Below are positions 17,769 to 45,811 of a DNA stretch of 64,000 nt, piece after piece. This stretch comes from Thiomicrorhabdus xiamenensis (GTDB lineage: Bacteria > Pseudomonadota > Gammaproteobacteria > Thiomicrospirales > Thiomicrospiraceae). A program made the position numbers and the translations under genes. Every line of letters starts with the position of its first letter. Position 1 is the stretch's first letter. Where the stretch lies: positions 558,001-622,000 of the forward strand of contig NZ_CP054020.1 of NCBI RefSeq assembly GCF_013282625.1, given 5' to 3'. A model generated the notes under the pieces. The model did not search any database. It saw only the letters and a list, made by a program, of their open reading frames with translations, and was not told where the DNA came from.

Positions 17769-18239
17769 ATGGTTATTCATTTTATTACCGTTGGGCAGAA
17801 GATGCCCAAATGGGTTCAGGATGGCTATCAGGAGTACGCAAAGCGTCTGCCTAAAGCCTGCGCACTGAAACTGATTGAACTGCCGATGGCCAATCGGGGT
17901 AAAAGCAATTCGGTCGACAAGATGAAAGCCGAGGAAGCTAAGCGCATTCTGGAAGCGGTGCCGAAAGGGGCGCGTTTGATTGTGCTCGACGAGCACGGTC
18001 AGCAGGTTACCACGAAAGGCTTGGCGGATAAGATGGAAGACTGGCTTGGCAGTGGTCAGGATATTGCACTGATTGTAGGTGGGCCGGACGGCCTGGAAAA
18101 AAGCCTGATCGATCAGGCGCAGTGGAAATGGGGGCTCTCCAAATTGACCATGCCTCATCCTATGGTGCGGATTCTGGTGGCCGAGCAGATTTATCGAGCC
18201 TGGTCGGTCATTCAAAACCACCCCTACCATCGTGAGTAA
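17769..18239 (+). CDS. rlmH: 23S rRNA (pseudouridine1915-N3)-methyltransferase
   Basis: A 156-residue SPOUT-fold methyltransferase modifying pseudouridine 1915 of 23S rRNA. The SAM-binding knot signature is 'IALIVGGPDGLEKSL', and the C-terminal 'QIYRAWSVIQNHPYHRE' is the near-invariant tail. It starts 12 bp after rsfS. The next bases after the stop form a long structured element described separately. Confidence 0.97.
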   Translation: MVIHFITVGQKMPKWVQDGYQEYAKRLPKACALKLIELPMANRGKSNSVDKMKAEEAKRILEAVPKGARLIVLDEHGQQVTTKGLADKMEDWLGSGQDIALIVGGPDGLEKSLIDQAQWKWGLSKLTMPHPMVRILVAEQIYRAWSVIQNHPYHRE

Positions 18240-18330
18240 AAAAGGCTTATTTATCCAGAATCTGTGTTGCGTAAAAGTTCATGTACTAATTGTACACTTC
18301 GCTTTCACGCGCCTTGATTCTGAATAAAGC
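18240..18330 (+). ncRNA. structured intergenic element downstream of rlmH (copy 1)
   Basis: About 91 nt right after the rlmH stop folds into one long imperfect hairpin. The outer arms are 'CAGAATC' (18256-18262) and 'GATTCTG' (18316-18322), extended by imperfect pairs down to the 3' T-run. The middle arms are 'GCGTAAAAG' (18269-18277) and 'CTTTCACGC' (18302-18310), pairing 8 of 9. The apical arms are 'TGTAC' and 'GTACA' (18282-18286, 18292-18296) with a 5-nt loop. Internal loops 'TCA' and 'CTTCG' flank the apical stem. The 3' end is a T-run at 18325-18330, so it may also act as the rlmH terminator. A second copy with the same plan lies after purH. Whether it is a stable RNA, a terminator or a REP-like DNA repeat is unknown. 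Confidence 0.6.
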
Positions 18331-18506
18331 GCTCTTTTTTAATTTCAAGGTTATTCTTTTCTTCACGTCGCTAAAACCTGCCTGGATCTTGAAGCAAAAA
18401 TCTCATTTTTTAGTTGGGTTTTAAGATCTGAGCGATTCTCTTTATCGCTTTTTCAAACTCAAACCTTTTGACCCTTGGTGAACTTCGTGTCTACGCTGTT
18501 AATATT

Positions 18507-24173: not shown

Positions 24174-25157
24174 ATGCAACTGATTCGCGGACTGCACAAT
24201 TTGACTCGCTTTAGAGCGCAATTTTCCGAAGGTTGTGTTTTAACGATCGGGAACTTCGATGGCATTCATTTGGGCCATAGTCGGGTTTTACAGGAAGTCT
24301 CGAAAAAGGCCCGACAGCTCCGACTGCCAAGTGTAGTTATGGTTTTCGAACCGCTGCCGATTGAGTATTTTGCTCCGGATAAGGCTCCGGTTCGCTTGAT
24401 GAATCTGCGCGAAAAGCTGCAAGCTTTTAACTCGACTCATATCGATTATGTACTTTGTGTCCATTTCAACGAACAGTTCGCAAATCTGACGGCAGAAGCG
24501 TTCGTCGAACAGATTCTAGTCGATGCTTTTGCGGTCAAGCACCTGGTCGTTGGCGACGATTTCCGCTTCGGAAAGGAGCGTCGAGGTAATTTTACCTTTT
24601 TGCAGGAGACCGGTAAGACATTCGGTTTTACGGTTACGGATATGCCGACTTACTGTATCGATAATGAGCGCGTCAGCAGTACGCGCATCCGTACAGAGCT
24701 GGAAAAACCGGATCTGGCCGGTGTCGAGCGTTTGATGGGGGCGCCTTTCGGTTTTAGCGGTCGAGTCATTCATGGTCAGAAACTGGGGAGGACCATCGGT
24801 TTTCCGACCTTGAATCTGAATCCAAAACGAATGCAGATGCCGGTTCAGGGAGTATTTGCCGTAGAAGTCGATGGTATTGCCGACACATCCTGGCCGGGCG
24901 TAGCCAATATCGGATTGCGCCCGACAGTGGACGGTATCAGACCGTCGATTGAGGTGCATTTGTTTGATTGGCAGCAGGATTTATACGGTCGGCATATTGT
25001 CGTTAAATTACGTCATTTTATCCGTCCGGAAATGAAATTCGACGGCATTGAACAGCTTCGCGTGCAGATAGAAAAAGATGCCGCGCAAGCGAGACAGTTT
25101 TTTGAAGAATATTATTTAAACGCGCAACAGATTGACGTTTTAGAGAGTAACGCATGA
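24174..25157 (+). CDS. ribF: bifunctional riboflavin kinase / FMN adenylyltransferase
   Basis: A 327-residue enzyme making FMN and then FAD. The N-terminal nucleotidyltransferase domain has '[16 protein letters not shown]' and '[16 protein letters not shown]'. The C-terminal riboflavin kinase domain has '[18 protein letters not shown]' and '[13 protein letters not shown]'. It overlaps ileS by four bases (ATGA), the conserved ribF-ileS coupling. FAD supply matters here for the sulfide dehydrogenase FccB, though that is only context. Confidence 0.97.
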
Positions 25158-28009
25158 GCAAAGATAACCAGAACAGTCAAACCACTGACTATAAACCGAC
25201 TTTGAATTTGCCGGAAACAGGCTTCCCTATGCGCGGCAATCTGCCGAACCGCGAGCCGAAACAAGTTGAGGCCTGGTTGGATGACGGGCTTTATGAAACG
25301 GTTCGAGAGCATATGGCTGGACGTCCGAAGTTTATTTTGCATGACGGTCCGCCGTACGCGAATGGGGACATTCATATCGGCCATGCAGTGAATAAAGTTC
25401 TGAAGGATATGATTGTCAAATCTAAAGGTCTTAGTGGCTTTGATGCGCCTTATGTTCCTGGATGGGATTGTCACGGTCTGCCGATCGAATTGAATGTCGA
25501 GAAGAAGAAGGGCAAGGTCGGCGTTAAGATCAATGCGACCGATTTCCGTCAGGCGTGCCGAGAATATGCTCAGAAGCAGGTTGATGGTCAGATGGCTGAT
25601 TTTCAGCGTCTGGGGGTTATGGCTGACTGGAAGAACCCTTATCTGACCAAAGATTTCAAATTTGAAGCGGACGAAATCCGCGCTCTGGCGAAAATCATTG
25701 AAAACGGCCACCTGGTTAAGGGGACCAAGCCGGTTTACTGGTCGGTTGGGGGACGCTCGGCGCTGGCGGAAGCGGAAGTGGAGTATGAAAACAAACACTC
25801 CAAGTCGATCGATGTGCGTTTTAAAGTAGTTGATGAAGAAGCTTTCTTCAAACGTTGCCATCATGTTGAAGACCACACTGGCGAAGGACCGCTTTCGGTT
25901 GTCATCTGGACAACGACGCCTTGGACTTTGCCTGCCAACCAGGCGGTTTCCATTAATCCGGAACTGGAATATGCCGTGGTGCAGGTTGAAGGCGAGAACG
26001 GGCCGGAACGTCTGTTCCTTGCCGAGGCAATGATTAAAGATGCCATGGCACGCTGGGAATTCGATAAATACAAGGTGATTGCTTACGGTAAAGGGGAGCA
26101 GTTTGATCTGATCCGTCTGCAACACCCTTTTTACGATCGTATCGTTCCGTTGATTCTTGGCGACCATGTCACCACCGATGCCGGTACCGGCTGTGTACAT
26201 ACGGCTCCTGGGCACGGTGTGGAAGATTTCGCGGTCGGTCAAAAATATGACCTTGAAGTGGATTGTCCGGTTGACGGTGCGGGGAATTACGTCGCTGGAA
26301 CGCCTTTGTTTGAAGGCGAGAATGTCCTGAATGTCGATGATCATGTCATCGAAGTGCTTAAAGAGCATCAGGCCCTGGTGCATATTGAAGTGATCGAACA
26401 CAGCTACCCGCATTGCTGGCGTACCAAAACGCCGTTGATTTTCCGTGCTACGCCGCAGTGGTTTATCTCTATGGAAGAAGCGGGTCTGCGCGATGCCGCC
26501 ATGAAAGCTATTCCGCAGGTTAAATGGGTTCCTGAGTGGGGCCAAAACCGCATCGAAGGTATGATTGATGGTCGTCCGGACTGGTGTATCTCCCGTCAGC
26601 GTTTCTGGGGTGTGCCGATTACGATTTTCATACACAAAGTGACTGGAGAGATGCATCCGCAAACAGTTCAGATCATGCAGCAGGTTGCGTCTATGGTTGA
26701 AGCAAAATCGATCGACGCCTGGTATGACCTTGATCCGGCAGAAGTGTTGGGGGATGAAGCGGACAATTATGAAAAGGTTACTGACATCCTGGATGTTTGG
26801 TTTGATTCCGGAATTTCGCATCAGACAGTGCTCAAAGAGCGTGCGGAGCTGCAAACGCCTGCGGATCTTTATCTGGAAGGTTCCGATCAGCATCGCGGCT
26901 GGTTCCAGTCGTCGCTTCTGACCGCTTTGGCGACCGACGGCGAAGCGCCTTATAAACAGGTTCTGACGCACGGCTTCACTGTGGATAAAGACGGTAAGAA
27001 AATGTCCAAGTCCAAAGGAAATGTCGTTGCACCGCAGCAAATCGCCAATAAGCTGGGCGCGGATATTTTGCGTTTATGGATTTCTGCCGCCGATTACCGT
27101 TATGAAATGACGGTTTCCGACGAGATCATCAGTCGTACTGCGGATGCGTATCGTCGTATCCGTAATACCGCGCGTTTCCTGTTGGCGAATATCAACGGCT
27201 TTAACCCGGTTGAAGATATGGTTGCGTACGAAGACCTGTTGCCGTTGGATAAATGGGCGGTCGGTCATGCGGCTCAGCTGCAGAAAGAGATTATCGAATC
27301 CTACGATGAATATAATTTCCTGAATATTTATCAGAAAGTGACCCACTTCTGTTCCATTGAACTGGGCGCTTTCTATCTGGATGTTATCAAAGACCGTCAA
27401 TACACTTGCAAGGCGGATGGCTTGCCGCGTCGTTCGGCGCAGACGGCTCTGTATCATATCGTTGAAGCCATGACGCGCTGGATTGCACCGATCCTGAGCT
27501 TTACTGCCGAAGAGATCTGGCAAGAGATTCCAGGCGAGCGTGAAAAAACGGTTTTTGTTGCGACCTGGTACGAAGGTTTGACGGCGCTGGATGAAACCAC
27601 GGATATGAACTCGGACTACTGGGCGCAAATGATGGCGGTACGTTCAGCGGTTTCCAAGCAGCTTGAACAATTGCGTAACGACAAAGTTATTAAAGGCTCT
27701 TTGACTGCCGAAGTGACTCTGTTTGCTGATGAAGTGCTGTATGCGGAATTGAACAAACTGGATGAAGAGTTGCGTTTTGTACTGATTACATCGGAAGCCA
27801 AAGTGTTGCCAGCGGCAGAAAAAACCGCAACGGCGATCGAATCCGAGGTTGATGGCCTATGGGTTGAAGCTAAGGCGACCGAACATGCTAAGTGCGCCCG
27901 TTGTTGGCACCACCGTGAAGAGGTTGGCTCGATTGAAGGTCATGAGGATCTGTGCCAGCGCTGTGTGGATAATGTCGAAGGTGATGGCGAAGTTCGTCAC
28001 TTCGCTTAA
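25154..28009 (+). CDS. ileS: isoleucyl-tRNA synthetase
   Basis: A 951-residue class I synthetase charging tRNA-Ile. HIGH motif '[16 protein letters not shown]' near residue 65, KMSKS motif '[13 protein letters not shown]' near residue 615, editing domain with '[15 protein letters not shown]', and a C-terminal zinc finger ('[12 protein letters not shown]', 'LCQRCV'). The bacterial (mupirocin-sensitive) type by architecture. It is coupled to ribF and followed by a terminator-like hairpin and lspA. Confidence 0.97.
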
Positions 28010-28144
28010 TTTACCAACTTGTTTCATCAATCTGACAAGCTATCTCGCGGCTAGAAATTGGTCGCTTACTATTCGTAAGTTGACATTTTCTGCCTTGAAT
28101 CGGCATAACGCAGATTGTGAACCAAGTAGTAAATAACTATTTAG

Positions 28145-28174
28145 AGCCACGAGAGAATTCTTCGTGGCTTTTTT
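28145..28174 (+). terminator. intrinsic terminator between ileS and lspA
   Basis: 'AGCCACGA' / 'TCGTGGCT' stem (28145-28152, 28162-28169) followed by TTTTT. lspA begins 24 bp later, so read-through or a separate start must supply lspA. Confidence 0.75.
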
Positions 28175-44002: not shown

Positions 44003-44090
44003 AATTTATCCTTCAGGGATAACTCTTAATTCCTTCGAGAAGATATTTAAGAGCATTATTATTCATTAATTCCAAACTAATTCAGATGAA

Positions 44091-44209
44091 GGAAGGGGCG
44101 TTTTGCTTGAGGTCATGGCAATTAAAAAAAACCGAAGCGTAGTGTGCTTATTGCACATGAGCATCGGAAGTTTTGAGTTAACGCAGAGATCAAGTAAGCA
44201 AGCCTTTCC
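44091..44209 (-). ncRNA. structured intergenic element between purH and purD (copy 2)
   Basis: About 119 nt starting about 10 bp after the purH stop. The core hairpin has arms 'CCGAAGC' (44132-44138) and 'GCATCGG' (44161-44167), pairing 6 of 7. The apical stem is 'TGTGC' / 'GCACA' (44143-44147, 44153-44157) with a 5-nt loop and an internal loop 'GTAG' opposite 'TGA'. Outer pairs 'CTTGA' (44106-44110) and 'TCAAG' (44190-44194) and a basal 'GGAAGG' / 'CCTTTCC' close it. In purH-sense orientation it shares with the rlmH element the blocks 'AAAGGCTT', 'ATCT.TG.GTT', 'TCATGTRC' and 'ACACTWCGCTT', in the same order. That makes common origin likely. Confidence 0.6.
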
Positions 44210-44219
44210 TATAAGTCAG

Positions 44220-45782
44220 TTAGTGTTTGAAGTGACGCATCCCGGTAAACACCATCGCGATGCCGTGCTCGTCGGCAGCGTCGATAACTTCCTGATCACG
44301 CATAGATCCGCCCGGGTGGATTACCGCTGTAATTCCTGCTGCAGCCGCTGCATCAATACCGTCGCGGAACGGGAAGAAGGCGTCAGAGGCCATGACCGAA
44401 CCAGGTACTTCAAGCCCTTCATCGGCGGCCTTAATGCCGGCAATTTTCGCAGAGTAGACACGGCTCATTTGTCCCGCGCCAACGCCGATGGTCATGCCGT
44501 CTTTGACATATACGATCGCATTGGATTTAACGAATTTTGCCACCTTCCATGCGAACATCAAATCCTGCATCTCTTTGTCGGTTGGAGTGCGTTTAGTAAC
44601 CACTTTCAGGTCTTCCTGAGCAACAGCGCCCAAGTCGCGATCTTGAACCAGTAGACCGCCGGTCACACGTTTGTAGTCGTAAGCCGCTTGCTGGCCGGTG
44701 AATTCACCGCATTCAAGCAGGCGAACATTCTGCTTGGCCGCAACCGCCGCCTTGGCTTCCTCGGAGACCTTAGGCGCGATAATCACTTCAACGAACTGGC
44801 GGTCAACGATAGCCTGAGCCGTTTCGCCGTCCAATTCGGTGTTGAAGGCGATAATGCCGCCGAAGGCTGAAGTCGGGTCGGTTTTATAGGCTCGGTCGTA
44901 AGCGTCGAATTGTGTTGCGCCGATGGACACGCCACAAGGGTTGGCGTGTTTAACGATCACACAAGCCGTTTCTTCAAAGGTTTTTACCAGTTCAAGCGCC
45001 GCGTCGGTGTCAGCAATATTGTTGAAAGACAGCTCTTTACCCTGAATCTGGGTTGCGGTTGAGATAGACGCTTCGCTGGCATTACGTTCGGTATAGAAAG
45101 CCGCTGCCTGGTGTGGGTTTTCCCCATAGCGCATGGACTGCTTTTTAACGAACTGAGTATTGTAGGTACGCGGGAAGGTGTCACCTTCTTCAGTATTGAA
45201 CATTTTACCGAAGTAGTTCGAGATCGCGCCGTCGTAACGGGCAGTCTGTTCAAAGGTTTTAATCGCCAGATCAAAACGGGTCGCGTGGGATAGCTGACCA
45301 TTATTTGCCTGCATCTCTCCAAGAATACGCGAGTAGTCAGTCGGATCGGTTACTACGGCTACGTCGTTGTGGTTCTTTGCCGCAGAGCGCAGCATGGTTG
45401 GTCCGCCGATGTCGATGTTCTCGATCGCGTCTTCAAGAGCACAATCTTCTTTGGCAACCGTCGCTTCAAATGGGTACAGGTTAACCACTACCATGTCGAT
45501 CGGGTCGATACCGTGCTCTTGCATGATCGCGTCGTCGGTGCCGCGGCGTCCCAAAAGTCCGCCGTGGATTTTCGGGTGTAGCGTTTTAACGCGGCCGTCC
45601 ATCATTTCAGGGAATCCGGTGTATTCAGATACTTCTGTGACCGGAAGACCGGCTTCAGACAATACTTTGTAAGTCCCTCCGGTTGAAAGAATGGCTACGC
45701 CCATCTCGTTGAGCGACTGGGCAAACTCTAAAATGCCGTTTTTGTCTGACACGCTGATTAAAGCACGACGAACTGGTTTCAT
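44220..45782 (-). CDS. purH: bifunctional AICAR transformylase / IMP cyclohydrolase
   Basis: A 520-residue enzyme for the last two steps to IMP. N-terminal cyclohydrolase (MGS-like) domain '[18 protein letters not shown]', then the transformylase domain with '[11 protein letters not shown]' (catalytic Lys-His) and the C-terminal '[18 protein letters not shown]'. The start is the ATG preceded by 'GGAG'; nine further in-frame residues upstream are unlikely. It follows fis by 29 bp, an arrangement frequent in this group. Confidence 0.97.
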
Positions 45783-45811
45783 GGTTAATCTCCAAAATTT
45801 AGGATTCAATA

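Follow-up and report, generated by a model that had tools for sequence, protein, structure and literature searches.

ERIC-like hairpin elements past stop codons in Thiomicrorhabdus xiamenensis, with evidence for a multi-phylum family that takes in ERIC and sX9

The window, a 64,000-nucleotide stretch of the Thiomicrorhabdus xiamenensis genome, carries copies of an ERIC-like element after rlmH, ileS and purH (Table 1), and all three sit past a stop codon in sense orientation. At rlmH, the element (copy 1) folds into a three-tier hairpin, and the UAA stop of the gene lies inside its outer stem. The minimum free energy of this hairpin is -34.2 kcal/mol (z -6.61), and none of 200 shuffles folded equally well. 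The structured hairpin that an earlier note had described at the rlmH stop is thus real, with a stability far beyond chance. Its extent had been given as 18240-18330; the element stood, but its true span is the longer one in Table 1. The T-run with which the hairpin was said to end is also present at rlmH. However, it forms part of the outer A6/T6 stem and is not a feature of the family, and the ilvC copies have no T-run at that position and a separate terminator downstream.

Table 1. Features of the three element-bearing loci in the window.
Feature	Position	Strand	Remarks
rlmH	17769..18239	+	host gene of copy 1
Copy 1, ERIC-like element at rlmH stop	18237..18341	+	three-tier hairpin; from fold and broad model R2
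Loop A, 5' half	18262..18269	+	CTGTGTTG; family CTGYGTTR
Loop B, 5' half	18279..18281	+	TCA
Apical stem	18282..18296	+	TGTAC-TAATT-GTACA
Loop B, 3' half	18297..18300	+	CTTC; family CTNC
Loop A, 3' half	18311..18317	+	GCCTTGA
Fossil 3' half of older copy	18364..18411	+	CACGTCGCTAAAACCTGCCTGGATCTTGAAGCAAAAATCTCATTTTTT; common to sister species G216
ileS	25154..28009	+	host gene of copy 3
Copy 3, degenerate ERIC-like element after ileS	28030..28131	+	from R2
Intrinsic-terminator-like hairpin	about 28144-28171		downstream of copy 3
Copy 2, ERIC-like element between purH and purD	44090..44210	-	long-spacer subtype; 9 nt past purH stop
purH	44220..45809	-	host gene of copy 2; listed ORF, actual start probably inside it

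Two covariance models were used. The narrow model, R1, was built from five clear copies found in this genome by pattern search, and the broader model, R2, from 78 sequences that included no E. coli ERIC. Copies 1 and 2, both part of the R2 training set, scored 90.2 and 61.1 bits with R2. Copy 2 alone folds less strikingly (z -2.62). It shares ordered blocks and model pairs with copy 1, as expected from the claim of a second copy of the same plan after purH, and the compensatory change between the two apical stems, from TGTAC/GTACA to TGTGC/GCACA, is present. Copy 3 had been overlooked; it starts 21 nt past the ileS stop and was matched by R2 at 28030-28112 (28.8 bits, E 6e-5).

In the 2.59-Mb genome, R1 gave 16 matches at E <= 10 and R2 gave 26 candidates at E <= 1, which supports the genome-wide family that had been suspected. 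The search of the genome and its relatives with covariance models, which the earlier note had proposed as a check, found further copies and strong covariation. The note's impression of relatives in other gammaproteobacteria was also borne out, as R1 had matches in 100 of the 369 genomes of the class. At least one match was found in each of the 24 related genomes listed for the genus, and R2 had matches in 128 of 398 Pseudomonadota genomes. An exact core pattern, for which a rough estimate gives fewer than one chance match, was found in genomes named Chlorobium, Desulfobacula, Bacteroidales, Pseudomonas, Chromobacterium, Halomonas and others, although several records among them are metagenome bins and could be misassigned. 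At these loci R2 recovers the element beyond the letters of the pattern. Viral contigs searched with the same pattern gave no match, and members from other phyla gave nothing at the gathering threshold of Rfam. Judged by sequence, some two dozen loci in this genome are candidate copies of an ERIC-type mobile repeat.

Among the 78 aligned sequences, double-sided changes were observed at all 23 model pairs. The covariation score was 0.689, compared with 0.171 after shuffling and no more than 0.160 when partners were slid; fitting the alignments to the model inflates the pairing somewhat, but the slid controls stay low. In a distant set from other genera and phyla, 18 of 23 pairs showed double changes, with a score of 0.370 against 0.115. 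The conserved positions outside the apical stem cluster in two internal loops, loop A with CTGYGTTR facing YGCCTTGA and loop B with TCA facing CTNC. The distance between the loops is 8-10 or 18-20 nt per side with nearly nothing between, as measured in 117 of 161 dereplicated elements by a scored search that superseded a simple-pattern measurement (47 of 161). The two spacer classes differ by about one helical turn.

Helix mismatches flanked by Watson-Crick pairs were counted on the strand read here, which in this genus is the gene-sense strand. A.C mismatches outnumbered G.T by 74 to 10 in a first set and by 22 to 11 in a second. The dereplicated set gave 116 to 28 (binomial p 6e-14), with shared ancestry corrected for by dereplication only. 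The aligning model prefers G-U to A-C, so alignment bias opposes the A.C excess. Since every A.C mismatch reads as a G.T wobble on the opposite strand, this pattern keeps the complementary strand foldable. Consistently, of 161 elements, 143 have the better fold on the complement under RNA parameters and 148 under DNA parameters; neighbouring DNA showed no such bias (69 versus 89). In copies with both neighbour genes antisense, A.C still exceeded G.T (20 versus 5) and 21 of 21 fold better on the complement; the bias is therefore a property of the element and not of the mRNA. The folding constraint acts on the strand opposite the upstream gene, which is the complement of the strand that had originally been folded.

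The placement at 3' ends in sense orientation, also suggested earlier, was found for most copies. Four complete genomes from the genus yielded 44 dereplicated copies, 42 of them sense and two antisense to the upstream gene, mostly 2-22 nt past the stop codon. Across all groups, copies near genes are sense in 104 cases and antisense in 16, based on simple ORF calls; in G199 the orientation is mixed. The upstream genes in this genome include ilvC, rlmH, aroC, purH, lpd, queA, trpB, moaE, trpG and groL, those outside the window being named by eye from the C-terminal sequence without a family search. One copy is antisense, in front of an apparent bioD. Two weak, degenerate copies, 145 bp apart (L049 1501-1607 and L053 1501-1609; G000:C1:2551315-2551566), lie antisense inside a single 793-aa ORF, and they may represent a repeat that has turned coding.

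A copy is present at the rlmH stop in most species of the genus, and its stems differ even between sister species, with one shared fossil 3' half downstream of the differing copies. At ilvC, units of copy plus terminator are arranged in tandem with a period of about 190-200 bp. These patterns are turnover and not simple inheritance. A separate AGGCCT-centred palindrome (ACCAGGCCTGGT, AACAGGCCTGTT) was observed beside the elements L058, L068, L065, L120 and L125, and it recurs where the tandem units at ilvC join. In three genomes (L226, L229 and L247) the core lies in an rRNA operon between tRNA-Ile and tRNA-Ala, directly past the CCA end of tRNA-Ile, the tRNAs being recognised by eye. Another locus (L390 742-855) gave an Rfam trpB motif match of 33 bits, below the cut-off of 59.

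The outer arms around the core vary between genomes. In G033, G236, G337 and others the core is carried by MITEs with GTAACTRYTCAGC ends, and the copies of these three genomes have terminal inverted repeats together with an 8-bp target-site duplication. Such duplications, with 7 or 8 of 8 letters agreeing, were found for 15 of 21 MITE-borne copies, compared with none of 1000 mismatched flanks. The GTAAC... ends and 8-bp duplications are presumably of the IS66 type. IS66-like MITEs are only a vehicle for the core elsewhere, as neither such ends nor an 8-bp duplication were seen around the inspected copies of the T. xiamenensis genome. In one genus member, G023, the core is flanked by GGGTCTGTTGACA ends; apart from this MITE type, the copies of the genus have no clear terminal repeats. 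The G023 unit (L401-L403, L398, L399) is a MITE of about 300 bp with GGGTCTGTTGACA ends and seemingly two oppositely oriented cores. In Chlorobium, Bacteroidales and Pseudomonas the core sits within other palindromes. An IS66-type transposase was absent from five of six genomes tested and partially matched in the sixth, so that an autonomous IS66 partner was not found among the six. A literature search by sequence string and by MITE and IS66 terms gave nothing specific, and a paper on Thiomargarita MITEs showed no link to the element.

Taken as a whole, the observations are probably best explained by an ERIC-type miniature mobile repeat. In this long imperfect palindrome the core, with loops A and B one or two helical turns apart, stays conserved, and compensatory changes let the stems diverge. 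The element would move as a non-autonomous DNA repeat, with transposases supplied in trans, and a protein may read the conserved loops on the folded complementary strand. That strand could be single-stranded DNA during replication or transposition, or an antisense RNA, single-stranded DNA being the simplest choice. The site just past a stop codon would be one where the host tolerates insertion. Once inserted, the element would be transcribed at the mRNA 3' end, where it may alter 3'-end processing and decay as Yersinia ERICs are reported to do. A bolder version deserves tentative consideration, though we lean against it: a module shared by Pseudomonadota, Chlorobiota and Bacteroidota, read by a conserved protein on the folded strand opposite the host gene, may have been taken up repeatedly by unrelated miniature transposons for mobility or tolerance, with ERIC and sX9 as its local names.

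Several other explanations were weighed. The sense hairpin could act in cis at the mRNA 3' end, under selection for its part in the stability, processing or termination of the upstream transcript, with mobility only incidental. Such a role would fit the sense orientation just past stop codons, the usually highly expressed genes that the element adjoins (ilvC, groL, tuf, trpB, lpd and cbbM, named by eye), its frequent position upstream of a terminator, and the description of sX9 as a Xanthomonas transcript family. However, the four-to-one excess of A.C over G.T on the sense strand indicates that sense RNA pairing is not the feature being preserved, and the same bias is seen in copies with both neighbours antisense and in the mixed-orientation copies of G199. 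We consider this explanation rather unlikely, although the strong sense bias could mean a real mRNA role, one that the folded complement does not explain. It is doubtful, too, that a folded RNA of the complement acts at the gene 3' end, as an antisense RNA or as a stop for antisense transcription. The mismatch pattern and the purine-rich loops (GNAG/TGA on the complement) do favour that strand, and at rlmH the complement also ends in a T-run. Yet many copies lie between co-directional genes, where an antisense promoter is unexpected, the ilvC copies lack a T-run on the complement, and the bias also appears when folding uses DNA parameters, so RNA need not be involved.

Palindromes of the RAYT/REP type, one of the options in the earlier note, resemble the element in being intergenic, repeated, palindromic and near 3' ends. 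However, no Y1 transposase (PF01797) was found in this genome, G003, G023, G024, G199 or G257, all of which hold several to many copies, and REP anatomy differs from these elements of about 100 nt with two conserved internal loops. RAYT/REP activity was excluded as the present driver here, since the transposase gene was not found in the genome, and we regard such an origin as very improbable. A simple intrinsic terminator or a two-copy coincidence would account for the T-run of the rlmH copy and has practically no chance of being the answer, as the genome- and phylum-wide family, the conserved loops and the covariation refute it as a full account. A universal terminator role was likewise dropped. 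Integron attC sites were rejected by reading, as the RYYYAAC / GTTRRRY pair was not found (GTTRRRY is not kept and has no AAC partner), and a kink-turn was considered and dropped.

The preferred reading, a miniature mobile repeat, invites comparison with known ones. ERIC repeats have been described as enterobacterial and vibrio elements. They have served in typing for decades, with no agreement on how they move or what they do. The published ERIC/RU-1 consensus reads CTGCGTTG, then TCA-CTTAC-TTAT-GTAAG-CTCC, then GCCTTG, and the ordered core CTGYGTTR ... TCA-stem-loop-stem-CTNC ... GCCTTG was found in the same order in our elements. E. coli ERIC was the top R2 match in the right place and on the right strand at four of four loci (E 5e-5 to 0.016; the next match, an unrelated one, 10.8 bits), although the loci are homologous and amount to one test more nearly than four. 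R1 was not significant on ERIC (best E 0.089), so family membership with ERIC rests on R2 and shared anatomy. The likeness to ERIC/IRU/RU-1 covers the sequences and order of loops A and B, the spacing class of about 20 nt and the single long palindromic hairpin, which in our elements is also intergenic and present in several copies per genome. The four E. coli copies examined likewise have their better fold on the complement. In contrast, the stem and terminal sequences of ERIC are unrelated to those of the genus elements, which are often of the short-spacer subtype and come from a genus outside the published host range (Enterobacteriaceae, Vibrionaceae) as reviews give it. The 127-bp unit, TATA-type termini and TA duplication of ERIC sensu stricto were not seen in the inspected copies of the T. 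xiamenensis genome. Hence, as judged from these comparisons, the genus element is a distant relative of ERIC and not ERIC proper, and ERIC, hitherto regarded as enterobacterial, seems to belong to a much broader family.

As far as our incomplete coverage of the literature shows, the kind of element is known, and its breadth, strand rule and loop phasing appear to be new. The wider family gives hundreds of independent sequences for ERIC questions; they indicate which strand to fold, the two key loops and their helical-turn spacing, so that a search for a binding protein becomes directly testable. NEMIS/Correia and YPAL elements, as reviews describe them, are also small hairpin-forming mobile repeats co-transcribed with genes. 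In the reviews PMC2229807 and PMC10969869, Yersinia ERICs are described as destabilising the upstream mRNA in an orientation-dependent manner via an RNase E site. By analogy, an mRNA effect is also plausible for the present element.

Rfam, which the earlier note had named as a place to search, gave no family at the gathering threshold for the rlmH copy; relaxing the threshold brought up sX9 and OmrA-B, both below their cut-offs, and nothing else. The sX9 score at this copy was 12.1 bits against a cut-off of 44 bits, and no sX9 match in the window reached the cut-off. Rfam sX9 (RF02228, a Xanthomonas sRNA) matched 6 of 229 genomes of the class and none of its matches fell in the T. xiamenensis genome, where one copy (L047) resembles the sX9 subtype. 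The first 21 positions of sX9 correspond to our apical stem and 3' loop B, and the loci that score with it extend 5' into the same long hairpin; one of them (L165) is a strong match for both models. The Rfam model differs in covering 76 nt only and starting inside loop B, and Rfam run on an sX9-type locus returned only sub-threshold sX9. Rfam sX9 appears to describe one subtype of this repeat in shortened form. sX9 has been reported among the most prevalent sRNA families, with several sX9 genes in one Xanthomonas, and our comparison suggests that one of the most prevalent bacterial small RNAs listed is a fragment of this repeat.
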